The notes under the pieces: generated by a model | What the model was told of the DNA's origin: nothing | The model's database searches: none | Seen by the model: only the letters and a program-made list of their open reading frames with translations | Position numbers and translations under genes: made by a program | Source of the DNA: Fervidobacterium changbaicum | GTDB lineage: Bacteria; Thermotogota; Thermotogae; Thermotogales; Fervidobacteriaceae | Reading direction: 5' to 3' | Assembly (NCBI RefSeq): GCF_004117075.1 | Contig: NZ_CP026721.1 | Location: forward strand, 1,054,001-1,118,000 | Length of the DNA stretch: 64,000 nt | Shown: positions 15,593-53,569 of the stretch, piece after piece | Numbering within the stretch: position 1 is the stretch's first letter | Layout of the letters: every line of letters begins with the position of its first letter

Positions 15593-17174
15593 TCACTTAA
15601 GATATTTGTCAAACCACCCTACAATTTCCTTCAACCTTCTCAATCTGTGCAATGGTTTTCCTGACCTGCTCAATTCGTGGTTTTCACCTTTGAATATCAC
15701 CAGCTTTGCTTCAACACCGTGGTATTTGAGCGATGTGAACATCTGGATTGCTTCAACGAGCCAGCAGCGGTAGTCTTCGTCCGAATGTATGAAAAGCGTC
15801 GGTGTTTTGACTTTGTCTGCGTATTTCATCGGTGAGTGCCACCAGAGTTTTTCAAAATCACTCCAAGGTGTTGCCAACTGCTGGTCTTCGACAAAGAAGT
15901 ATCCAATATCCGTCGTTCCGAATTTGCTTATCCAGTTTGAAATGCTTCTTTGGGAAACTGCCGCCTTGAATCTATCCGTATGGCCGATAATCCAGTTGGT
16001 CATAAAGCCGCCGTATGAACCGCCGGTGACACCTATTCTGTTCTCATCGATGAAATCATACCTTGCGATTGCCTCATCTACAAATTGCATTAGGTCTTCG
16101 TAATCCACTGTTCCGTACTTGCCTCGGATGTCTGCAAACTGGTTGCCTCTTCCGTCACTACCACGCGGATTGCAGAACATGACAACGTATCCTTCACTTG
16201 CAAGTAGCTGCATTTCGTGCATGAAGACTTCTCCATAGGCTGTCTTTGGTCCACCGTGGATTTCTAAGATTGCGGGATACTTTTTGTCTGGTTCAAAGTT
16301 GAAAGGTTTCATGACCCAGCCTTCGATGGGTGTACCATCTTTTGTGTTGAACGTGAACCGCTCAGGTCTTGATGTGTACCTTTCTTTTTGCACCCATTCG
16401 TTGAACTGGCTGATTTGTTTTTCTTGTTTTCCAACAAGCTCGTAGATTTCTTGAAGTTTCATATTTCTCAAGCCAACGAAGAACACCTGGCCATTTACAA
16501 CATCAAAACCATCGACCGAACCAGTTTCGAATGTGAGCTGCTCAATCTTCCCAGAGAGGTCTATTCTGAAAAGCTGAGCATCGTGCCATTGCGTGCTCAC
16601 AAAATACAGGTACTTACCATCAATTTTAATAGCTCTGTTCCGACCAAATCTGCAGTCGCTGTTCACACTGTTGCCGATGCTCGCATCAAAATCGGGCGCT
16701 ATCGGTTCTACCCGATTGCTTGAGATATCGAGTATGTAGAATTGCGGATTTTCGTTTATTCCATATCTTCGCATGTCACTTCCAGCGAAGATTACCTTCC
16801 CATCCACAAACTCAGCAAGTTCGTACATGAAGTGGTCGTGGTGAGTCAATTTAATCGATTCATCTTTTTGCGCATCGTAAAGGTACAAATCATTGGGCAT
16901 TTTCATGACGTCTTTGAAGGTGTTGGAAACATACAGGACAGTATTTCCATCGGGGCTGTCAGAGATGTACTCTACGTTGGAATATTCGTCGGTGATGGGG
17001 CTGATTTGTTGGGTTTGAATATTGTATTTGAAAAGTCTCAATCGTTTCTTGTTCGTAAACCCAGAACCGTTTGCCCAGAAAGGTATTTCATCAACGACTT
17101 CGTAGTCTTTTTCTTCTTTCAAAGATTTGAGAAGCTTTTCTTTCTCTTCGCCGTTTAATTTCCAAAACTCACCA
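15593..17174 (-). pseudogene. 5'-truncated copy of the S9 acylaminoacyl peptidase
   Basis: This is a near-identical copy of the gene at 51538-53535, aligned without insertions at a constant offset of 35,945 bases. Homology stops at 17174, inside codons for GEFW, and an in-frame TAA follows upstream, so about 140 N-terminal residues are missing. The catalytic end is intact: GGSYGGF serine motif, HSDEDYR and GENHEL. An internal ATG at 17122 could start a 509-residue product, but that would lack blade(s) of the beta-propeller and has no visible ribosome site. Probably non-functional, or a reservoir for gene conversion with the intact copy. Confidence 0.85.
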
Positions 17175-24281: not shown

Positions 24282-25865
24282 TTAGGCGATTTCAAGGATC
24301 TTGCCAACAACGTAAGGATTCTTCCTCTGTTCGTCATAAGGTCTTTCGTCAAATGCAATGACCGACTTGATAGACTTTCCATATCGGATTCTATCTCTTA
24401 TTCTTTCTATAATATATGTCATAAAGGTTGTTCCACCAGTAATGTTGACGATTATCTCCCTTGCATTCTCAAGATAGTTTTCTGCTTTGGAGAGTATATC
24501 CCTTATTTCAGTAACACCGGAAAATGGATCCTTTATAATTATTGTTCTAACTTCGCCCCTAAACTCCGATTTTTCTACAATTTCATCGACTAACTTATTC
24601 CCTTCCTCTGAGGTAAGGATAACCAGTAGGTCTGCGTTGTAATTTTTCAGTACAGTGTACAAAGCTCCTTGAGTTGTACCAAGAGGAGTTAAGATAGCCT
24701 TCAGGTTTTTTTCTGGTGTGAACTCATTGAAGAATACATCTAAGTTGCCATTCTCAATCTTTTCAATCAAATCGTTAAGTGCAGCTCTGATCTTGTCGGG
24801 ACTTACGGGCAGGTTGTTAAAACCGAAATGAGCAAAGTGATTTCTTGCATCAAACAATACATTCGACTTCACCGGTAATGATTCTCTTTCACTAATATTC
24901 AAGAACTCGTCGTGTTTGCCCATTTTGTACAGAAGAACGTTCTTTATGTATTCACGAGCCAATCTTAGCGCCATACCGTAATCACCGGTTTGCACATAGA
25001 ATTTCACCAACTCCGCTTCTGACTTCAGTTCTTCTTCATTGAGAATCAGCGATTCATTTTCGATGTGGAAGGCTTTGTAACGTTCAACAAGTTTTTCAAA
25101 GAGTGGGGCGAAATGAGGAACAAATTCACTTACATCTCTTTTTAGCTTTTCGTCGCTAATGTCCTTGAAGAACTTACTTAAAGAATTACGGATAAGTTGG
25201 ATAGACCCAAGCCTTATAGATTCCGATACTTTTGTTAGGTCATCTGACAATATCCCCAGCTTTGTTGGTCTGTCTGCGTTCTTTTTGTGGTTGTTTTTAT
25301 AGTATTTTTCGTTCTGCTTTTTAATCAACTCTGACAACTGGGTTGCAAAACCGTAGTTTGTAAATAGTTTCGTTCCATATATCCAATCTATAGTCTCCGA
25401 CATTTCTGTAATATCAGTGCATCTTGTTGTTTTTATGTCACGATCGTACTTGCCGTATATTATTTTCACTTGAATTTGCTTTAGTTCTTTCAAATAAAGA
25501 GAAATAATTAGAGCCATCATTGGCAACATTCTAAAAGAGTGAGTTACGTCTAAGATAACCTCGTCACCATCCTGTACGCGAGGTATTATCTTCTTAACAA
25601 AATCAGCGACTTTTTCATCTTCGGAAATGTCAACTATTTTGACGCTAATACCGCGTGATTCGCAAAATTCTTTAACTTGCTCTTTTTGGAAGGTTTCATA
25701 AGCTCCTCGAGTTAGAAAGAATATCACTTCAAGGTCTTTGCCCTGCGATTTAAAAAACTCAACCAAAGCAAGCGGAAAAATCTTTTGCTTTGTCCTAAAG
25801 TCATCTATGAATACTTCACTCTCCTGGTAAGAGCCCGTGCCAAGGAAGGTTAGAAGTTTCGTCAT
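24282..25865 (-). CDS. Csx1/Csx2 (TM1812)-type CARF-HEPN protein with an extra C-terminal CARF-like domain
   Basis: 527 residues. The N-terminal CARF domain (about 1-160) has LGTGSY and the hallmark DVTHSFRMLP (106-115) of the TM1812/Csx2 family. A helical middle carries RNHFAH (R341, H346), an R-x4-H HEPN ribonuclease motif. Residues 388-527 form what looks like a second CARF domain: LTPLGTTQGAL, LLVILTSEEG, and NITGGTTFM (474-482). Ordinary family members of about 350-400 residues end after the HEPN part. Expected to be activated by cyclic oligoadenylate from Cas10 and to cut RNA. Start ATG 25865 follows GGGAGG. It lies downstream of the CalpT-like gene. The family is clear; the second CARF assignment is my inference. 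Confidence 0.85.
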   Translation of the reverse strand: MTKLLTFLGTGSYQESEVFIDDFRTKQKIFPLALVEFFKSQGKDLEVIFFLTRGAYETFQKEQVKEFCESRGISVKIVDISEDEKVADFVKKIIPRVQDGDEVILDVTHSFRMLPMMALIISLYLKELKQIQVKIIYGKYDRDIKTTRCTDITEMSETIDWIYGTKLFTNYGFATQLSELIKKQNEKYYKNNHKKNADRPTKLGILSDDLTKVSESIRLGSIQLIRNSLSKFFKDISDEKLKRDVSEFVPHFAPLFEKLVERYKAFHIENESLILNEEELKSEAELVKFYVQTGDYGMALRLAREYIKNVLLYKMGKHDEFLNISERESLPVKSNVLFDARNHFAHFGFNNLPVSPDKIRAALNDLIEKIENGNLDVFFNEFTPEKNLKAILTPLGTTQGALYTVLKNYNADLLVILTSEEGNKLVDEIVEKSEFRGEVRTIIIKDPFSGVTEIRDILSKAENYLENAREIIVNITGGTTFMTYIIERIRDRIRYGKSIKSVIAFDERPYDEQRKNPYVVGKILEIA

Positions 25866-26112: not shown

Positions 26113-26892
26113 TTAAGCGTCTTCAATTTGTAACCTGAGTTTTTGCTTGAATGTTTCAGCCGGTACTTCAAAACCTATCTTAAATTTGATTTCTTGTGGA
26201 ATTCTTCCTGAAAATATTAATTTATCTTGAATATATATATTGGCTTGCTTTCCGATTAATACATCGGAAAAGTATACAATAACAGCATCGTCCAAAACTT
26301 CGATTAGCAAGCCTTCTTCCCTTGTCTTTGATGTTGAGGCAGCAGCTTTTTGCGGGAACAACTCTCTTAGCTCATCTCCTCCGAATTTTTCGGATAGATC
26401 GATTATTACCTCCTCTGCTTGGTCTTCTTCAACTTTTGACAAATATTCTAAAAATTTTTCATAGAAGATCTCTATTCTCAATGCTTCGAAGTCATAAAAT
26501 TCTTTCCAAACACCTTGATATCCTCTGCTGGCTTTATTTTCATAGCTTTCTTTGACTTTTGCTAATTCATCTTTAGGTAAGTTCATGACAACCTCACAAT
26601 ACTTTATCATCTCAGGTGTAAGATACAATGCTATTGGCGTTACCTTTAAAGCAGAGACTAAGTGATCCACTCGTAGCTCATGCCCGTCTCCTGCTAAAAT
26701 TAGTTCCGGAGTCAAGTATACAGCTTTGTAAACTTCTCCAATGTCTTCAACAACGACTCCGTACACGAGGTCTTCGCCGTAGATGCAAAAGACGTCGCCA
26801 ATCTTTAATTTTTCAGTCCCCTGGTCTATCAATACTTCCACTTTCCTTGAGTGTGCTTTATAATCCTTCAGTATTCTCTTCAAATATTCCAT
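26113..26892 (-). CDS. CalpT-like protein (putative protease-cleaved anti-sigma partner)
   Basis: 259 residues, about 30 kDa. An N-terminal beta-rich part (KIGDVFCIYGEDLVYGVVV, about 20-90) leads to a helical middle, an Ala/Ser/Thr linker QKAAASTSKT (181-190) and a C-terminal beta domain (195-259). This layout matches the described CalpT: an N-terminal 23-kDa part holding the sigma factor and a 10-kDa C-terminal part, separated by a site cut by the Lon-SAVED protease CalpL. It directly follows the sigma-factor gene, and a CalpL homologue is encoded at 38092. The C-terminal domain aligns without gaps to the separate 79-residue protein at 29030. Start follows GGAGGGAATG. CalpT identity rests on context and architecture; no sequence search was possible. 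Confidence 0.6.
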   Translation of the reverse strand: MEYLKRILKDYKAHSRKVEVLIDQGTEKLKIGDVFCIYGEDLVYGVVVEDIGEVYKAVYLTPELILAGDGHELRVDHLVSALKVTPIALYLTPEMIKYCEVVMNLPKDELAKVKESYENKASRGYQGVWKEFYDFEALRIEIFYEKFLEYLSKVEEDQAEEVIIDLSEKFGGDELRELFPQKAAASTSKTREEGLLIEVLDDAVIVYFSDVLIGKQANIYIQDKLIFSGRIPQEIKFKIGFEVPAETFKQKLRLQIEDA

Positions 26893-26952: not shown

Positions 26953-27654
26953 TTACTTATAACGCATTTTGTCGCAGATTTTTGACTTGTACATTTTTAG
27001 TACCATCATAATCACGCAGTCTGAAACATCGACTACTTCAGTGAAAAATTTTTTAATTCTCTCTCTTATCCTTTGATGTGCTTTGTACTTTGCATCCGCA
27101 CTGGGATATTCTCTAAAATCAGTGTCCTTCTCATATTTGGTATATATAAAATCACATAAATCGGCTTCCTTATTTACAAACTCATTTTTAAAAGTTTCAT
27201 AGATGGCTTCTGCTATTAGCTCGTCGTAAGGACTATAACAATCGCTTGGTTCAACAGAAATTATCTCACCGAATTCCAAATTGTTGTGGTCATCTGACTG
27301 TGAAGATGTTATTTCTCTGTTTAAAGACTCAGCATCTTGTTTTGTACGTCTCACATCTTCTATTCTGCTCATCACGATTTTACTAAAATAACTAACAATT
27401 GCTTCAACACTTGCTTTCATCAGTTTCTCTTTTTTGTTGAGAAAGGAGATCGCCGATTCTTGAAAAATATCGTCAACAAGCTCTTCGAGGGTGCCTCTAC
27501 CAAGTAGGGAGTATCTCCCCTTGGTTCTCACTATAATCATACCTGAGATAAACTGATTAATGGTCTTTCTGCAGTCTTCTGACAAATCACCGCTGATCAG
27601 TAATTTTTTCAAACATTCTCCCAATTTAGAATCACTTTTTGTCAAAGCAGTCAT
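26953..27654 (-). CDS. ECF-like sigma-70 family factor of the CRISPR locus (CalpS-like)
   Basis: About 233 residues. Residues 55-110 match sigma region 2: LEELVDDIFQESAISFLNK, then VSYFSKIVMSRIEDVRR, with the helix-rich core and basic end seen in ECF factors. The C-terminal part ends with KAHQRIRERIKKFF, like the recognition helix end of region 4, though the helix-turn-helix is weak. It probably redirects RNA polymerase to defence promoters once released from the CalpT-like protein. Start ATG 27654 has GGAG eight bases upstream and overlaps the preceding gene by 23 bases, so translation is probably coupled. Alternative: a divergent regulator that only resembles region 2. Confidence 0.6.
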   Translation of the reverse strand: MTALTKSDSKLGECLKKLLISGDLSEDCRKTINQFISGMIIVRTKGRYSLLGRGTLEELVDDIFQESAISFLNKKEKLMKASVEAIVSYFSKIVMSRIEDVRRTKQDAESLNREITSSQSDDHNNLEFGEIISVEPSDCYSPYDELIAEAIYETFKNEFVNKEADLCDFIYTKYEKDTDFREYPSADAKYKAHQRIRERIKKFFTEVVDVSDCVIMMVLKMYKSKICDKMRYK

Positions 27655-28045
27655 TTTCCTCACTCCAATTTCCTAGGTCAATTGTACAGGAAGCTACAAA
27701 TTCTATTTTCTTTTGCCCTCTCCACTTTTCAATAATTGTCGATGGGATGTCGAAGATGTACTTATCACCGAATCGCATAAAATAGCTGTCCTTTGCTATA
27801 AAAAATCCAGATACCAGAGGACAACATTCGAATATCTTGAATCTTAACTTTGAATAACCCTTTGTAGAGAGAAAGGCTACCAAGTACCGGTATCCGTCAA
27901 TCTGTACCACACCTGGTCTTGTTGTCCTCTCACCTTCTTTTGACTTGTAAAGGTCTGGTTTATTTAAAAAGCTTGCGGCAGTTCTCTTAATATCGTGGAA
28001 AATGACTAGCTGCGATTTGAAATTGTATTTTTCGAGTTTTTTCAT
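27632..28045 (-). CDS. Small beta-rich protein, possibly PemK/MazF-like
   Basis: About 137 residues from ATG 28045 (a GTG at 28057 is also possible; neither has a strong ribosome site). The segment TTRPGVVQIDGYRYLVAFL, then STKGYSKLRFKIF and FMRFGDKYIFDIP, has the strand order and RPGVV signature of the PemK/MazF SH3-like barrel. The described CalpT is a MazF homologue, so this protein could be an additional or alternative sigma partner. It overlaps the sigma gene and is the first gene of that operon, with a TGCTATAAT box at 28214-28222. Not firmly identified. Confidence 0.5.
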   Translation of the reverse strand: MKKLEKYNFKSQLVIFHDIKRTAASFLNKPDLYKSKEGERTTRPGVVQIDGYRYLVAFLSTKGYSKLRFKIFECCPLVSGFFIAKDSYFMRFGDKYIFDIPSTIIEKWRGQKKIEFVASCTIDLGNWSEENDCFDKK

Positions 28046-28213
28046 GGGCTTTGGCACCCAGTAAACACTGTGGTATTTTATGTTCTGTGTGCCTTTCCTC
28101 CCTTCACTGAATGTCTAGATTATTTCGATCAAAGGTTGTTTTTCATTGATATTATAACAAATAAAAGTTGAAAACATGCAGCATTTTATGAATATGAATA
28201 ATGTTCAAGTATT

Positions 28214-28587: not shown

Positions 28588-28866
28588 TTATTCTATAAAA
28601 TTCGAAAAGATATTACCTTTATCCTTTCCAAGCACTTCTAATTTGATTTTGCAATCTCTTGGCAAGGAGTATATTACTACTCCATCTTCATCCTCTTTCT
28701 TCACATACTTTCCAATTCTTCTTATCATCTCTTTGAGTGAACCATTGGTTAGAAAGCCCTCGAAAGTCGAGTTCTGTTTCCAAACCAAAAATCGAAGTAA
28801 CAACTTGTGCACTTTTGAAACTCTTTTTTCGTTTATATCATAGACGACAAGATATCGTTTGCTCAT
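28588..28866 (-). CDS. cas2: CRISPR adaptation endoribonuclease Cas2 (copy 2)
   Basis: 92 residues. MSKRYLVVYDINEKRVSKVHKLL has the same fold start as copy 1 with D10, and the end (FSNFIE) is also alike, but the two are clearly diverged paralogues and not a recent duplication. Start ATG follows GGGAGGTAAAACTGCC. Either copy could pair with the Cas1 at 37005. Confidence 0.92.
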   Translation of the reverse strand: MSKRYLVVYDINEKRVSKVHKLLLRFLVWKQNSTFEGFLTNGSLKEMIRRIGKYVKKEDEDGVVIYSLPRDCKIKLEVLGKDKGNIFSNFIE

Positions 28867-29029
28867 GGCAGTTTTACCTCCCAGCTTTGTGGATGTTTCT
28901 TACCAATAAATAGACAACGTCCCACAGAGACTTTTCTGACTAAATTGCAACCAGTCAGGTTGTCAGAAATTCTAAGAAATTATGTTTTAAAACTTAGGAA
29001 GATGAATCTGGCACAAAGAGGTGGGATAG

Positions 29030-29269
29030 ATGATCGGAAGGTTCGTTGATTACATTATAGAAGTCGATGAGAAGAACATCAGTATATACTTCTCTGATGA
29101 TTTGGTAAACAAGCCTGTAAGGATACTCTTTCTTGAAGAAGAAGTGTACAAAGGACGACTGCCTCATGCACTGTTCTTAAAACTTGATAAAATTACCAAT
29201 CCGGAGCTTGTTAACTCGTATCTCAGAATAAAAATTATTCTTCCATCAGAGATGGCGTGCAGTTCTTAA
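29030..29269 (+). CDS. Stand-alone copy of the CalpT-like C-terminal domain
   Basis: 79 residues. Residues 7-69 align to residues 195-257 of the CalpT-like protein (26113-26892) with no gaps; I count 18 identities in 63 positions plus many conservative changes. Shared blocks are IEV, YFSD and GR-P, ending LR-x-x-I. Start ATG follows GAGGTGGGATAG, a good ribosome site. If the C-terminal CalpT domain is what the Lon-SAVED protease binds, a free copy could compete with CalpT or mark an activated state. That role is speculation; the homology is seen directly. Confidence 0.7.
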   Translation: MIGRFVDYIIEVDEKNISIYFSDDLVNKPVRILFLEEEVYKGRLPHALFLKLDKITNPELVNSYLRIKIILPSEMACSS

Positions 29270-29282
29270 GAAGCTAATACTC

Positions 29283-29678
29283 ACAAAATCCCCTACCTTT
29301 CATTCACCCTTGCTAACTTAGAGGCACGCGACTTTAGTCGTGTGAGAAGATAGACCTACCATTTTTGCTTTATTATACCGCCAACCATCTGCGCCAACTT
29401 GCAGTATTTGTAGCTTATTCTTTGGCATATCCTTTTGCCGTTAGTATCCTTAATGTCACAAAAGCTCCGCTGGCTCTAACCGCTGTTGTACCTATCCAAA
29501 CGCCAGTATACTTGCTTGCGACACAACAGCTTTAACAATCCGGAAATGATCTTTAGCCTGCTACCAATGTAGCACCTTCTTCCCCTTGTCCTTCGGGTCC
29601 GGTGCTCAGACTGGTCAACCAGAACTTTCTCAAGACCGCCACTTAAGTGGTGAGTGGTTGACTTGGTAGGGGATTTGT
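29283..29678. mobile_element. Non-autonomous element (MITE-like) or transposon remnant
   Basis: About 396 bases bounded by imperfect inverted ends: ACAAAATCCCCTACC (29283-29297) and GGTAGGGGATTTGT (29665-29678). An internal hairpin CACGCGACTTTAGTCGTGTG lies near the left end, a form common at IS200/IS605-type ends. No transposase frame is recognisable; the minus-strand frame at 29476-29703 is low-quality. It fills the gap between the 79-residue gene and cas6. Confidence 0.5.
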
Positions 29679-29680
29679 AA

Positions 29681-30421
29681 TTATACAATTTCTCTATCAA
29701 CAAGTTCTATGCATCCAAATCCTGCGGAGTTTTTGGAACCCAAACCCGCGTCATATGCTAATTTAACGATTTCCCAGTCACCAGTGATATCAAGCACTGT
29801 AATCCATGCATCAAGTTTTAATTCCTTGTAGGAGACAATAACTTTCTTCGGATTAGGTGCTATGTTTTTTACCCGTATGTCTCCTTCGAAAGGAACACCG
29901 TACGCGGCGTAATATTTCCTTTTAAGGTTGTCCTCCAGAAGTTTTTCAAAATCTTCATCGTTTGGTGAATGATAGAGCGTGTACCTTTTTCCATCTTTCC
30001 CAATTGTTGAATAAACAGTTATTGGTGATTTGGTATTCACTCTGATATGATTGGTCCTCGGAAGGTCAAATACTTGAATTTTTGTTGGCACAACCTTATT
30101 TCTTCCGATATTCAGTGTTTCAAATCTCCCGATCCTTTCAATAACGAAATCCACAAGTTTGTCATCTGCGGTAGAAAGTATCAAAACAACATTATCCTTA
30201 AATTTGATGACTTTCTTGTTAGAGTCTATTTCGAATCTTCCCAGAAGCCTTGAGAAACTGAAAAGTTTGTACTGTCTTTTACCATAGCTGTAGCCTCTAT
30301 CATGTAAGAACTTTCTGTACTCGTCATCGTTGATAAGATTGTATATAAGACCTTGAAGTATGTGATTGTAATCTGTTGGAAGTTCTATTGTTTTGCAACT
30401 AAGAGTGATGTAGACTCTCAA
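29681..30421 (-). CDS. cas6: CRISPR pre-crRNA endoribonuclease Cas6
   Basis: 246 residues. The C-terminal glycine-rich loop GLGSKNSAGFGCIEL is the Cas6 signature, and the N-terminal RRM-like fold begins MRVYITL. It cuts the repeat RNA to leave the eight-base handle ending the repeat (ATGGAAAN). The start is TTG at 30421 overlapping the upstream TGA, with GGGGGG seven bases before it. Last gene of the csm operon, which ends just before the MITE-like element. Confidence 0.92.
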   Translation of the reverse strand: MRVYITLSCKTIELPTDYNHILQGLIYNLINDDEYRKFLHDRGYSYGKRQYKLFSFSRLLGRFEIDSNKKVIKFKDNVVLILSTADDKLVDFVIERIGRFETLNIGRNKVVPTKIQVFDLPRTNHIRVNTKSPITVYSTIGKDGKRYTLYHSPNDEDFEKLLEDNLKRKYYAAYGVPFEGDIRVKNIAPNPKKVIVSYKELKLDAWITVLDITGDWEIVKLAYDAGLGSKNSAGFGCIELVDREIV

Positions 30422-31038
30422 AATCTATTCCCCCCTAATTTATCAGCTAATATTAACACGTTCTTTAAATCTTCTTCCTCATATACGAAATAATTGGTAC
30501 TACCTATCCTAAGACCTACTGTATTAACAAGCTGAATCATCTCTTTTGAACCAAAGAGTTTCAGTCTGTACACGTTCTTCCTAAACGAAGTTATGACTGG
30601 AATCAGAGAAAGTTCTTCGCTTTTGTCTTTAAAAAGCTGTTCGGCTAGGCTGAAATAGTATTTTTCGAAATTGGCTTGTAGCTCGTCTATATTGCTTTCA
30701 CCAAGTTGTTCATCTACCAATATGAAACCTTGATCGAAAGGTTCAACAACTTCAATGGTTGTGTAATAAGGGAAAACACCACCAAGAGGAACTCTCAGAA
30801 GTTTCCTCAAGGTGGTTCCGGAAAGGGTATCCCAAACTCGCAATTTAAATATTGCAGTACCTGACATATAATATCCGTTCTCGCTCAAATAAATCCTACG
30901 CCCAAGAATTCCAGAAAACGAGTAGAAGTATCCTACACCGTCACCAAAAATTTGCTCAAATAAGCCCCGTGTTAGCTCGTTCGTAACTAAAACAGGCGCC
31001 TGTAATTTCCACTTTAGAGTAATTTCCTGCAAGTTCAA
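30418..31038 (-). CDS. Unidentified protein inside the csm operon
   Basis: 206 residues, start TTG near 31038 (or TTG 31032, better spaced from GGGG). It is tightly placed between csm5 and cas6 and overlaps cas6 by four bases. It begins with alternating strands (ITLKWKLQAPVLVTNELTRGLFEQIFGDG), has VPLGGVFPYYTTIEVVEPFDQGF in the middle and a mixed alpha/beta end (RIGSTNYFVYEEEDLK). The strand pattern and position suggest a divergent RAMP-like or Cas6-related fold, but I see no glycine-rich RAMP loop. Not a standard Csm subunit. Confidence 0.75.
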   Translation of the reverse strand: MNLQEITLKWKLQAPVLVTNELTRGLFEQIFGDGVGYFYSFSGILGRRIYLSENGYYMSGTAIFKLRVWDTLSGTTLRKLLRVPLGGVFPYYTTIEVVEPFDQGFILVDEQLGESNIDELQANFEKYYFSLAEQLFKDKSEELSLIPVITSFRKNVYRLKLFGSKEMIQLVNTVGLRIGSTNYFVYEEEDLKNVLILADKLGGNRF

Positions 31039-34500: not shown

Positions 34501-36990
34501 TTACGACACCTCCACTTCACTTAGTAATTCATCTTCCTTTTCTATACTTCGAGTTTCATCATGAACCCATCTAACGATCAACCCTAACTTTGGATGCAAT
34601 CTGTTTCTTGAAACAAGGATTGAATTAAATAGTTTATCCATGTCCTCGATAACTTCTTTCTGCCTCTCCATAAGTCTTCCAATGTAGTAGTACAGCCGCC
34701 AAATTTTCAGTTCTTTATCATCTTTATCTGCGAATGTGTCAAGTACGTGTAATAAGTTCCTGCTCACACCCTTGGTAATTAGCTCTTTTAACTTTTCCTT
34801 GATTTCAAGAACCTTGTCGAACTCTTCCCAGCCTATACACCCCCTTAGGAAGTAAATAGCATCCTTTTCTCTACCATTGCGTTTATAAGCTTTTGCGTAC
34901 TCGTCGAGTAACTCTCCAGCAGTTGTACCAAGCTTGTAAACTGGGTATTTCCTGCTTGGTGCAATTGCTACAGCCATCGATATCGAAAGATTTTTGTTCT
35001 TAGTAAACTTCTCAAACTCTTTTCTTATACCACTACCAAGCATCGGCAGCTCGTTCCACGGTCCGAGTATCATGAAATCGTCGCCACCAGAGTATATAAC
35101 GTTGCAGTTTTGGTAGTTGTTTCTAACGTACTTCTCTAATGCAACGCTGAAGAACATCTCGAGTTCTGAAGATAACGTTGTAACATATGATATAGGTGCT
35201 CTTCTGTTTTCTAAATTGACACTGCTTTTTAGAGCCTTAAATATACTTCCAAGATTGTCTACATCGCCGCGAAGTATTGCCCAGCGTTTTACGCCTTCCG
35301 ATTGCTTAGCTATCGTTTCAAGGTCAGCGGTAACTTCTCTTCCATTTTTTTCGATATATTTTCTCGGAACGTAGCTAGCTATCTTTACATAATACATAGC
35401 TTCCATTGGGTCATATGTACCGTTCCTGCTCTTTTCAACCGCGTAAGACAGTTTGTTTGGTTCATTTTCGAACGAAAGTTCAAATCCGAAGTTTTTGAAT
35501 ACGTCAAATACATCCTGTGGCTTGCGATTTAACTCGGGAATTTGCTCAATCACTAAGAACTTGCTGTTCGCCAAATGGTATCCTAAATCGACGAAAGATT
35601 CACAAAATGTACATTCGTACTCTACTTCTTCACCAGCTTTGCCATACCTTCTTTCCTCCATCTTTCGTCCACAATACGGACATCTTGGCCCTGAGAAATC
35701 TTCTGGAACGAACATTTCTACATTCAGTATGTTTGCAAATTTTCTGTTCTTCTTTTCTTCAATAAGTCTCGCAAGATCATCATGTACGTCAAAATTGACA
35801 AGCCTTGAAAGGTTGATTTTCATACCGGCAAGAAGTACTGACAAATCTAATCCAAAGGCGTCGTACATTTTCTTGTCAAGTAAAGTTTGGTACTCTTCCA
35901 ACTTATCAATGGTCTTGGCAGGAACAAGAAGATAAAAGTGTCCCCCCCCGCAGTAGAGAATGTTTGAGTTGTAGAGACCTTCTTTTCTGATGATGTATTT
36001 TGCTATTATTTCAGCAAGGTAGGCTATAAAGAACGAACGAGCTCTTAATTTCTTAAGTCCGTTTTTGACGGAAGTTTTGTATATGAAGTCTTGTATACCA
36101 GATATATCACCCTTTATCACACCAAATAGATCTTCATCGTCTTTAAGTGAAACTTGATTATCCTGCAACTTTCTGACTATCTCCTCTAACTTCCCAAGTC
36201 TGCTCGAAGCAAATATAAACCTATCGTTTTGTTTCTCAAATATTCCTTCGCCAAGTTGAATCAACAAAGCTACAGCTATAGCAGCTGTTGAAGCTGCATG
36301 GGAGAATAGGGAAATATCGGGCTCACTGTAATAAAACGCAGAGGGAACTGTGGATGTAAATTCTTTGAGTAAATAATAAACTCTTTCAAGAACACCGTCC
36401 GGTTCTTTATTCCAAAGTTCTTTTAGAGCGCTATCTTTTATCAAAGGCTCGAACTCTTTCCATAAAGATTCATACTCCTTTTTTACCATTCTTTCCAAAA
36501 GCTCACTCTCTGATCTTACCTCTTCGGCCAATGAAAAACGCGAAAGTGGTCTGTAAAAGTTGACTTTGTCATCAACACCCAACACAGATACTTTGGAGAT
36601 TATAGATTTCATATACTTAATCCTATCTAAGTCGGTGTTTTGGCTGTAATCCATCCGTTCATTTGCAGACAGTTTATCTGCCAAAGACACTATTTTTGCC
36701 AGGATTTCGTGTTCATTCGCAAGATTTTCCAGTCTTTCATGGTGCTTACTAATAATGATTGAAACATCATCGCGATAAGGCAAAGAAGAGTTCTTGTAAA
36801 TATGTGCACCGATATACTGATGTGCAAGACCAGAATTGTTGTTCTTTATCTCATAGCTGTATTCTCTCTTTATCTCTTCTTCCAAGGTGTTGCCCATTTC
36901 CCCCCTTTGTCGGAACTTACCTACATCGTGGAACAAAGCCGATAAATAAGTCACGTCTCTCCACTTCTTAAACACATCGGTTCCTGACAT
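34501..36990 (-). CDS. cas10: Type III-A CRISPR large subunit Cas10/Csm1
   Basis: 829 residues. The N-terminal HD nuclease motif HDVGKF (H21, D22) is intact, for single-stranded DNA cutting. A zinc ribbon CPYCGRKMEE ... CTFC lies in the middle, and the cyclase palm has YSGGDDF with GGDD at 635-638. The intact GGDD predicts synthesis of cyclic oligoadenylate on target binding, which fits the CARF and SAVED effectors encoded nearby. Start ATG follows GGGGGTGG. Operon order is cas1-cas10-csm2-csm3-csm4-csm5-unknown-cas6. Confidence 0.96.
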   Translation of the reverse strand: MSGTDVFKKWRDVTYLSALFHDVGKFRQRGEMGNTLEEEIKREYSYEIKNNNSGLAHQYIGAHIYKNSSLPYRDDVSIIISKHHERLENLANEHEILAKIVSLADKLSANERMDYSQNTDLDRIKYMKSIISKVSVLGVDDKVNFYRPLSRFSLAEEVRSESELLERMVKKEYESLWKEFEPLIKDSALKELWNKEPDGVLERVYYLLKEFTSTVPSAFYYSEPDISLFSHAASTAAIAVALLIQLGEGIFEKQNDRFIFASSRLGKLEEIVRKLQDNQVSLKDDEDLFGVIKGDISGIQDFIYKTSVKNGLKKLRARSFFIAYLAEIIAKYIIRKEGLYNSNILYCGGGHFYLLVPAKTIDKLEEYQTLLDKKMYDAFGLDLSVLLAGMKINLSRLVNFDVHDDLARLIEEKKNRKFANILNVEMFVPEDFSGPRCPYCGRKMEERRYGKAGEEVEYECTFCESFVDLGYHLANSKFLVIEQIPELNRKPQDVFDVFKNFGFELSFENEPNKLSYAVEKSRNGTYDPMEAMYYVKIASYVPRKYIEKNGREVTADLETIAKQSEGVKRWAILRGDVDNLGSIFKALKSSVNLENRRAPISYVTTLSSELEMFFSVALEKYVRNNYQNCNVIYSGGDDFMILGPWNELPMLGSGIRKEFEKFTKNKNLSISMAVAIAPSRKYPVYKLGTTAGELLDEYAKAYKRNGREKDAIYFLRGCIGWEEFDKVLEIKEKLKELITKGVSRNLLHVLDTFADKDDKELKIWRLYYYIGRLMERQKEVIEDMDKLFNSILVSRNRLHPKLGLIVRWVHDETRSIEKEDELLSEVEVS

Positions 36991-43977: not shown

Positions 43978-44168
43978 TTACTTCAGATAATTCTCAAACC
44001 AACCCACAATTTCCTTCAACCTTCTCAACCTATGCAGCGGCTTACCACTCCTGCTCAGGTCGTGGTTTTCTCCTTTGAATATCACTAATTTTGCTTCAAC
44101 ACCGTGGTATTTGAGCGATGTGAACATTTGAATTGCTTCTACAAGCCAGCAGCGGTAGTCTTCGTTCT
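43978..44168 (-). pseudogene. 3' fragment of the S9 peptidase (third copy)
   Basis: Encodes only the last 60 or so residues (EDYRCWLVEAIQMFTSL to EIVGWFENYLK). It matches the copy at 51538 more closely than the one at 15593 over its first 110 bases. Homology ends near 44168 where the IS remnant begins. Not functional. Confidence 0.9.
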
Positions 44169-44169
44169 G

Positions 44170-44680
44170 AAGGAACAAGCACGAAGGCTCACAAGTTACT
44201 GCAAGAATAAGTAAGTACACGTGGAGAAAGTGCATATAAGATAAGAAGGTAAGCAGGCGAGAAGCTCTTGGGTCAGAAGGAATAGAGAGGTTTAAAGTGT
44301 GCATTATTAGGAGACAGAACTTGAGGAACTGTACGGTTGGATGTTGGTGATGGTGATGAGTGATAAAGAAGGAGTAGTACATGATATATGGTATCATCCA
44401 GAAAGTTTACATAAATTAAAATCATTGAGGGAAACATAAAGAAAAACAATCGGACTAGGTATGTGATACAAGGTAGTGGGGGTTTGGGAAATATGAGATA
44501 CAGAGGAAGTGGGATGGTGAAAATGTGCAAGGAGAAAAGTAAAAGCCAAACGATAGAAAGAGTAAATTCGATAGTTAAAAGATTCAATAAATTGAGCGGA
44601 TGGCGACTAAGGATGACGGTATACCGTATCTTTATGCAAACACGGTTGGATAAAGCCATCTCATAAATATTCTTAATTCC
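44170..44680 (+). mobile_element. Degenerate IS remnant, same family as the IS at 55685-56591
   Basis: Plus-strand reading gives CIIRRQNLRNCTV, then in another frame VMSDKEGVVHDIWYHP, then RYRGSGM and ERVNSIVKRFNKLSGWRL. These match the transposase of the 55.7-kb element (SDKEGVVYDIWYHP, GYRGS, ESVNSIVKKFNKISGWRL) with several frameshifts. Terminal inverted repeats are not recognisable. It directly abuts the broken peptidase fragment. Confidence 0.8.
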
Positions 44681-51537: not shown

Positions 51538-53535
51538 TCACTTGATATACTTATCAAACCAACCCACAATTTCCTTCAACCTTCTCAACCTATGCAGCGG
51601 CTTACCACTCCTGCTCAGGTCGTGGTTTTCTCCTTTGAATATCACTAATTTTGCTTCAACTCCGTGGTATTTGAGCGATGTAAACATCTGGATTGCTTCA
51701 ACAAGCCAGCAGCGGTAGTCTTCATCAGAGTGGATGAAAAGTGTTGGTGTTTTAGCTTTGTCTGCGTATTTCATCGGTGAGTGCCACCAGAGTTTTTCAA
51801 AGTCACTCCATGGTGTTGCTAATTGCTGGTCTTCGACAAAGAAGTATCCAATATCCGTCGTTCCGAATTTGCTTATCCAGTTTGAAATGCTTCTTTGGGA
51901 AACTGCCGCCTTGAATCTATCCGTGTGGCCGATAATCCAATTGGTCATAAAGCCGCCGTACGATCCACCAGTTACTCCTATCCTATTCTCATCAATGAAT
52001 TCGTATTTTGCTATTGCCTCATCCACAAATTGCATGATATCTTCGTAGTCTATTGTGCCGTATTTTCCTCTGATGTCTGCGAATTGATTGCCTCTTCCGT
52101 CACTACCACGCGGATTGCAGAACATGACAACGTATCCTTCACTTGCAAGTAGCTGCATTTCGTGCATGAAGACTTCTCCATAGGCTGTCTTCGGTCCACC
52201 GTGGATTTCTAAGATGGCAGGGTATTTCTTCCCAGGTTCGAAGTTGAAAGGTTTCATGACCCAACCTTCGATGGGTGTACCATCTTTTGTGTTGAACGTG
52301 AACCGCTCAGGTCTTGATATGTACCTTTCTTTTTGCACCCATTCGTTGAACTGGCTGATTTGTTTTTCTTGTTTTCCAACAAGCTCGTAGATTTCTTGAA
52401 GTTTCATATTTCTCAAGCCAACGAAGAACACCTGGCCATTTACAACATCAAAACCATCGACCGAACCAGTTTCGAATGTGAGCTGCTCAATCTTCCCAGA
52501 GAGGTCTATTCTGAAAAGCTGAGCATCGTGCCATTGCGTGCTCACAAAATACAGGTACTTACCATCAATTTTAATAGCTCTGTTCCGACCAAATCTGCAG
52601 TCGCTGTTCACACTGTTGCCGATGCTCGCATCAAAATCGGGCGCTATCGGTTCTACCCGATTGCTTGAGATATCGAGTATGTAGAATTGCGGATTTTCGT
52701 TTATTCCATATCTTCGCATGTCACTTCCAGCGAAGATTACCTTCCCATCCACAAACTCAGCAAGTTCGTACATGAAGTGGTCGTGGTGAGTCAATTTAAT
52801 CGATTCATCTTTTTGCGCATCGTAAAGGTACAAATCATTGGGCATTTTCATGACGTCTTTGAAGGTGTTGGAAACATACAGGACAGTATTTCCATCGGGG
52901 CTGTCAGAGATGTACTCTACGTTGGAATATTCGTCGGTGATGGGGCTGATTTGTTGGGTTTGAATATTGTATTTGAAAAGTCTCAATCGTTTCTTGTTCG
53001 TAAACCCAGAACCGTTTGCCCAGAAAGGTATTTCATCAACGACTTCGTAGTCTTTTTCTTCTTTCAAAGATTTGAGTAGCTTTTCTTTCTCTTCATCGCT
53101 CAATTTCCAAAACTCACCAAGTCTGTGGTCGTACACTGCTGTGAATAGAAAGACCTCATCGTTCAATTTCTTTAAGCGCTCGACAAAGAACGGCAGTTCG
53201 AAAGTGCGCTTTGCTTCCCCACCTTCAACGGTTATTTCGTAAAACGGTGTTACTGGCTCACCGTTTTCTTTCCTCTTTCTGTCTTTTTCCTCTCTCCATG
53301 AGACAAAGAGAATCCTTGAGCTATCCAACCAAATTGGTGAGCTGTCTTTGTTTGAAGATGTGAGCTGCGAGAGTGTACCTTTCTGAATATCGTAAATCCA
53401 GATGTTAGAGGTATAACCATTCTCATCTTTGTTCATATCATGAACAACAAAAGCAAGCTTTTCACCATCAGGAGAAAGTGTTAATCCAGAAATAAACTTG
53501 AATTTCAACAAATCATCGAATGTTATTTTTTCCAC
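51538..53535 (-). CDS. S9-family acylaminoacyl/prolyl oligopeptidase (intact copy)
   Basis: About 665 residues. An N-terminal beta-propeller (WD40-like PD40 repeats such as LSPDGEKLAFVV, DSPDGNTVLYVS) is followed by the alpha/beta hydrolase with the nucleophile S525 in TGGSYGGF, the acid in HSDEDYR and the histidine in GENHDLSR. It cleaves oligopeptides in the cytosol. I chose GTG 53535, five bases after GGGGGTGG. A TGGTATAAT box lies at 53570-53578. Two incomplete copies exist at 15593-17174 and 43978-44168. Confidence 0.93.
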   Translation of the reverse strand: MEKITFDDLLKFKFISGLTLSPDGEKLAFVVHDMNKDENGYTSNIWIYDIQKGTLSQLTSSNKDSSPIWLDSSRILFVSWREEKDRKRKENGEPVTPFYEITVEGGEAKRTFELPFFVERLKKLNDEVFLFTAVYDHRLGEFWKLSDEEKEKLLKSLKEEKDYEVVDEIPFWANGSGFTNKKRLRLFKYNIQTQQISPITDEYSNVEYISDSPDGNTVLYVSNTFKDVMKMPNDLYLYDAQKDESIKLTHHDHFMYELAEFVDGKVIFAGSDMRRYGINENPQFYILDISSNRVEPIAPDFDASIGNSVNSDCRFGRNRAIKIDGKYLYFVSTQWHDAQLFRIDLSGKIEQLTFETGSVDGFDVVNGQVFFVGLRNMKLQEIYELVGKQEKQISQFNEWVQKERYISRPERFTFNTKDGTPIEGWVMKPFNFEPGKKYPAILEIHGGPKTAYGEVFMHEMQLLASEGYVVMFCNPRGSDGRGNQFADIRGKYGTIDYEDIMQFVDEAIAKYEFIDENRIGVTGGSYGGFMTNWIIGHTDRFKAAVSQRSISNWISKFGTTDIGYFFVEDQQLATPWSDFEKLWWHSPMKYADKAKTPTLFIHSDEDYRCWLVEAIQMFTSLKYHGVEAKLVIFKGENHDLSRSGKPLHRLRRLKEIVGWFDKYIK

Positions 53536-53569
53536 AAAAGCCACCCCCAATTAGTTCGTTGTTCGTACT

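Follow-up and report, generated by a model that had tools for sequence, protein, structure and literature searches.

A free-standing CalpT10-like domain in Fervidobacterium CRISPR loci and its possible role as a competitor at the docking site of CalpL

Introduction

The original description of CalpL, CalpT and CalpS reportedly dates from 2023, and cleavage assays for CalpL and CalpT are already in existence. CalpT is an anti-sigma factor that is held by the protease CalpL in a preformed complex, and signalling is limited by CalpL itself, which degrades the messenger cA4 (PMC11417357). Once activated by cA4, CalpL cuts from CalpT a piece of 10 kDa, termed CalpT10 (PMC12751052). Here we describe a small gene that encodes a counterpart of this piece as a protein of its own, henceforth the solo. 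It lies in the type III-A CRISPR locus of the thermophile Fervidobacterium changbaicum, within a stretch of 64,000 nucleotides that was analysed as a whole and is called the window.

The Calp locus in the window

The type III-A locus comprises cas10, csm2-5, cas6, a Cas6-like ORF, cas1, two cas2 genes and CRISPR arrays, and its accessory proteins are a CARF-HEPN protein of the Csx1 type, CalpT, CalpS (with a weak match to ECF sigma factors) and CalpL (Table 1). The identity of CalpL, which the earlier note had taken for granted, is secured by matches to solved structures and to the PADLOC Lon-SAVED model. As expected of a Calp system, a Lon-SAVED protease, CalpT, a sigma-like protein (by its weak match) and a type III Cas10 are thus found together; cas10/csm1 is presumably the source of the cyclic oligoadenylate signal. 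In the predicted structure of CalpT, the tail domain (pLDDT about 78) has the same strand order as the solo, and the model is poor outside the tail. The linker ahead of the tail (residues 182-192) is poorly ordered, and this Ala-rich stretch is probably the region where CalpL cleaves.

The locus has further features. An ORF between csm5 and cas6 (30418-31038, minus strand) matches a PADLOC Cas6 model at 3.4e-58, and a second Cas6-type gene therefore seems to be present. The CARF-HEPN protein (24282-25865, minus strand; TIGR02221-like) contains another CARF-like region at the C-terminus (residues 405-487). Directly upstream of calpS lies an ORF of 141 amino acids (27632-28057, minus strand), which is kept in about ten Thermotogota Calp loci, has no match in Pfam, NCBIfam or PADLOC, and is a possible fourth Calp component. 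Elsewhere in the window there are near-identical prolyl-oligopeptidase-like genes at 15593-17122, 51538-53550 and 43978-44397; of these, one is intact, another is truncated at the beginning, and the remaining one is a fragment fused to an unrelated frame.

Table 1. Coordinates of the solo gene, of the Calp and Cas genes around it, and of the solo tails in Cloacimonadota.
Feature	Coordinates	Strand	Evidence or remark
Solo CalpT10-like gene	29030..29269	+	79 aa; domain at residues 5-70
Ribosome-binding site of the solo gene	29018..29029	+	GAGGTGG about 5 nt ahead of ATG
calpT, 259 aa, anti-sigma factor and CalpL substrate	26113..26892	-	PADLOC Unk_02 1.5e-62, CRISPR-T 4.2e-25
CalpT10-like C-terminal domain of CalpT, residues 193-259	26116..26316	-	
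Ala-Ala-Ala-Ser linker directly ahead of the CalpT tail domain	26335..26346	-	kept in CalpTs, not in solos
calpL, Lon-SAVED protease, 509 aa	38092..39621	-	PDB 7qda/8b0r E 1e-41; PADLOC SAVED_LON 2.6e-152
calpS, ECF-like sigma factor, 236 aa	26953..27663	-	TIGR02937 1e-4, below cut-off; adjoins calpT, position kept
cas2, next to the solo gene and divergent from it	28588..28866	-	Pfam CRISPR_Cas2 1.2e-17
cas6, next to the solo gene and convergent with it	29681..30421	-	Pfam Cas_Cas6_C 1.9e-33
cas10/csm1, type III-A	34501..36990	-	TIGR02578 4.9e-159
Cloacimonadota solo tail, L118	9836-10156		
Cloacimonadota solo tail, L119	9767-10147		
Cloacimonadota solo tail, L120	334-660		

The solo gene and its relation to the CalpT tail

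Residues 7-69 of the solo align without gaps to residues 194-256 of CalpT, with 18 identities in 63 positions. The earlier note had reported the same gapless alignment and the same count, on the same solo residues; its CalpT range (195-257) was off by one. Its description of a plus-strand gene with a good ribosome site also holds, and the solo orthologues described below likewise have GGAGG-type sites upstream, as seen by inspection of the sequences. The ungapped score of solo against CalpT is 84, a value that none of 1000 shuffles reached (best 51), and an HMM made solely from the tails of 13 CalpTs, with the solos left out, matches the solo at an i-E of 2.4e-14; together these results rule out a chance alignment. 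Within the genome of 2.27 Mb, the CalpT tail is the sole other match to the solo (E 2.1e-4). The PADLOC CalpT-type models Unk_02 (2.2e-8) and CRISPR-T (6.9e-5) match residues 7-69 of the solo through the final 50-65 model positions, and in Pfam, NCBIfam and PHROGs the solo has no significant match to any family. The part of CalpT that holds the sigma factor is missing from the 79-residue ORF, which corresponds to the last 63 residues of CalpT only, and the Ala-rich linker of CalpTs has no counterpart in it.

Among the sequences of solved structures, a combined profile, made from 12 tails of CalpT together with three solos, matches chain D of PDB entry 8b0u, which is CalpT10, at E 3.2e-5, and a profile of CalpTs reaches the same protein at 3.7e-6, through the tail only. 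The AlphaFold model of the solo, for which four tails served as the input alignment, has a pLDDT of 81. Compared with 350,542 chains, its best structural match is 8b0u_C (Foldseek E 1e-5, Z 8.9, 2.4 A over 71 residues, TM 0.69-0.71), and the next-best chain follows at a Foldseek E of 0.03 and a Z of 5.8. Because the tail profile matches 8b0u and the solo model fits 8b0u_C best, we conclude from sequence and predicted structure that the solo gene encodes a homologue of CalpT10 as a separate protein. CalpT10 is the fragment whose structure has been determined together with CalpL. The title of the entry, "Structure of the CalpL/T10 complex", means that the CalpT10 domain binds CalpL, and this supports the premise of the earlier note that the protease docks on CalpT through the tail domain.

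Orthologues and selection

Three further Fervidobacterium genomes, representing two further distinct loci, carry orthologues of the solo. Those of G002 and G004 lie in near-identical loci and are 54% identical to the solo of the window, and that of G003 is 39% identical to it. All of them sit between a convergent cas6 and a divergent cas2, on the opposite strand, and the order cas6-solo-cas2 is kept even in G003, where the locus is inverted and partly rearranged. The earlier note suggested that a free copy could act as competitor, decoy or reset factor and made this depend on solo copies recurring near CalpL genes; in 4/4 solo-bearing Fervidobacterium genomes the solo does share its locus with calpT and calpL, which supports the suggestion in part. 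In these loci calpT is found 3-5 kb from the solo and calpL adjoins cas1.

In the tree the solos group together in a single clade (97/93), and the tails from these genomes make up a different one (95/88), which speaks for one old duplication or gain and not for a recent copy. Identity between genomes is 54/41/38% for the solos as against 37/24/31% for the CalpT tails, and pN/pS, in a comparison with saturated synonymous sites, amounts to 0.35-0.43 for the solo, 0.41-0.47 for CalpT and 0.48-0.65 for the CalpT tail. The solo is a real gene under purifying selection, and it is better conserved than CalpT's own tail. Its conserved residues include some that are specific to solos (RFxDxIIE, and NK, YK or TM in place of the GK of the tails), which could reflect a changed partner. 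The C-terminal ends of the solos are variable, with no conserved second domain.

No consensus promoter was found directly upstream of the solo gene. The upstream regions of three solos contain no shared promoter motif that would be a sign of control by CalpS, and feedback control is therefore unsupported at present. On its other side, the solo gene is separated from cas6 by an element of 390 bp (29286-29676) with 12-bp terminal inverted repeats (AAATCCCCTACC), parts of which have matches (69-88%) at 10 further positions of the genome; some of these matches resemble both termini of a larger element. The element is absent in G002 and G003, in which the gap between solo and cas6 is 57 and 2 bp, respectively.

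Distribution

Of 103 Thermotogota genomes, about 15 have a clear CalpT and four have the solo; 11 other calpT neighbourhoods of this phylum contained no further solo. Further candidates were discarded: a 59-residue match in G187, antisense to a TPR gene, and the matches in G051, inside ORFs of 511 residues in a genome without CalpL, were judged to be due to chance, and a short match in Fervidobacterium G007 belongs to a CalpT tail that the contig end truncates directly upstream of calpL. A scan of genome contigs for CalpL gave 3 loci only. As to CalpL itself, that of G072 is split across two frames (L069 11189-12732), and in G076 two CalpL-like ORFs lie side by side (L070 15109-17465), with a third elsewhere.

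In every solo-bearing Fervidobacterium locus, calpL is set apart from calpT, beside cas1, and the cas locus has one of the two genes at each end. In most other Calp loci, by contrast, calpT is directly upstream of calpL and often overlaps it. The nearest Calp locus devoid of a solo (G067) has the split order as well, yet its cas6 and cas2 abut where the solo would be. As there is one solo origin and G067 is split without a solo, the link between gene order and solo is only suggestive.

A second solo lineage occurs in three Cloacimonadota genomes of one genus, as a solo tail of about 100 residues at a housekeeping locus. CalpTs of Cloacimonadota with very different N-terminal parts also retain the tail. 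No CalpL was found in the three incomplete genomes with the solo tail, and a solo tail alone is therefore no proof of control of CalpL. The tail can exist alone elsewhere, and a solo need not serve CalpL.

Discussion

Our data suggest the following model for the solo in Fervidobacterium. CalpT consists of a part that holds the sigma factor, a flexible Ala-rich linker and the tail (CalpT10) that docks on CalpL; cA4 causes CalpL to oligomerise and cut CalpT, probably in the linker. The solo corresponds to the docking tail alone, with no linker to cut and no sigma factor. By filling the CalpT10 site on CalpL while offering nothing to cut, it would compete with CalpT. One outcome may be that weak cA4 signals fail to free the sigma factor, the cA4 threshold being raised and cleavage damped. 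Another may be that the solo occupies the docking site on CalpL that is produced at a distance from CalpT, and a free docking domain may matter wherever calpL and calpT are not made together. We infer from homology, fold, synteny and conservation that the solo binds CalpL, at the same site, and that its effect would be restraining rather than activating. Of the readings considered, competition with CalpT for this site, with a higher cA4 threshold or weaker cleavage as its effect, is the most likely one, although in our view it is evenly balanced between right and wrong. The further reading, in which the duplicated docking domain is a host-encoded inhibitor of a CRISPR-activated protease and sets the threshold of the CalpL-CalpT-CalpS switch, is put forward more tentatively, as something that may well turn out otherwise. 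Against a competitor stand the solo-specific residues, the Cloacimonadota solos in genomes where no CalpL was found, and the fact that most Calp loci, including that of G067, manage without a solo.

Other explanations have to be considered, chiefly a new partner and adaptor action. It is unlikely, but deserves attention, that the duplicated domain has lost its binding to CalpL and acquired a new partner, such as the CARF-HEPN protein, Cas6 or Cas2. The age and separateness of the solo clade, its place next to cas6 and cas2, and the Cloacimonadota solos in genomes where no CalpL was found would fit such a change, but the Fervidobacterium solo occurs only with calpL and calpT, and the core of the domain is kept. 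It is likewise rather unlikely that the solo binds CalpL as an adaptor or assembly factor, which, instead of inhibiting the protease, brings another protein to it or stabilises it until CalpT comes: the solo-specific residues and the variable C-terminal tails could hold a partner, but the solo is a bare domain devoid of a conserved second one. A remnant without function, or an ORF that exists by chance, might be suggested by the small size of the gene, its position outside any operon and the lack of a consensus promoter directly upstream; this is contradicted by the existence of orthologues, the purifying selection, the ribosome sites and the constant position, and is most improbable. The same low probability attaches to a captured viral decoy, i.e. 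a domesticated anti-CRISPR derived from CalpT, for although viruses took the SAVED domain of CalpL as AcrIII-2 (PMC12751052), searches of viral contigs, phages and plasmids gave no relative of the solo, whose position is fixed inside the cas locus.

The solo is a new component of a known system. We found no description of a solo copy of CalpT10 in the literature searched, which covers few subscription papers, nor, in the searchable literature, of a docking-domain competitor as a control of type III signalling. If the competitor model is true, a competitor for the docking site would be a control on the protease CalpL and not on the messenger cA4.

The closest known protein is CalpT10 of the Sulfurihydrogenibium CalpL/T/S system, with which the solo has the fold (over the 71 aligned residues at Z 8.9) and the profile match in common. 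It differs in being encoded by its own gene and made without proteolysis, with neither a CalpS-holding part nor a cleavable linker, and the two are 18% identical in the structural alignment. With CalpT as a whole the solo shares the last 63 residues, gapless, but the first 190 or so residues are missing, and it is therefore not expected to bind the sigma factor. AcrIII-2, a SAVED domain that viruses encode alone, resembles the solo in that one domain of a Calp protein is produced by itself; AcrIII-2 stems from CalpL, is viral and degrades cA4, whereas the solo is bacterial and stems from CalpT.
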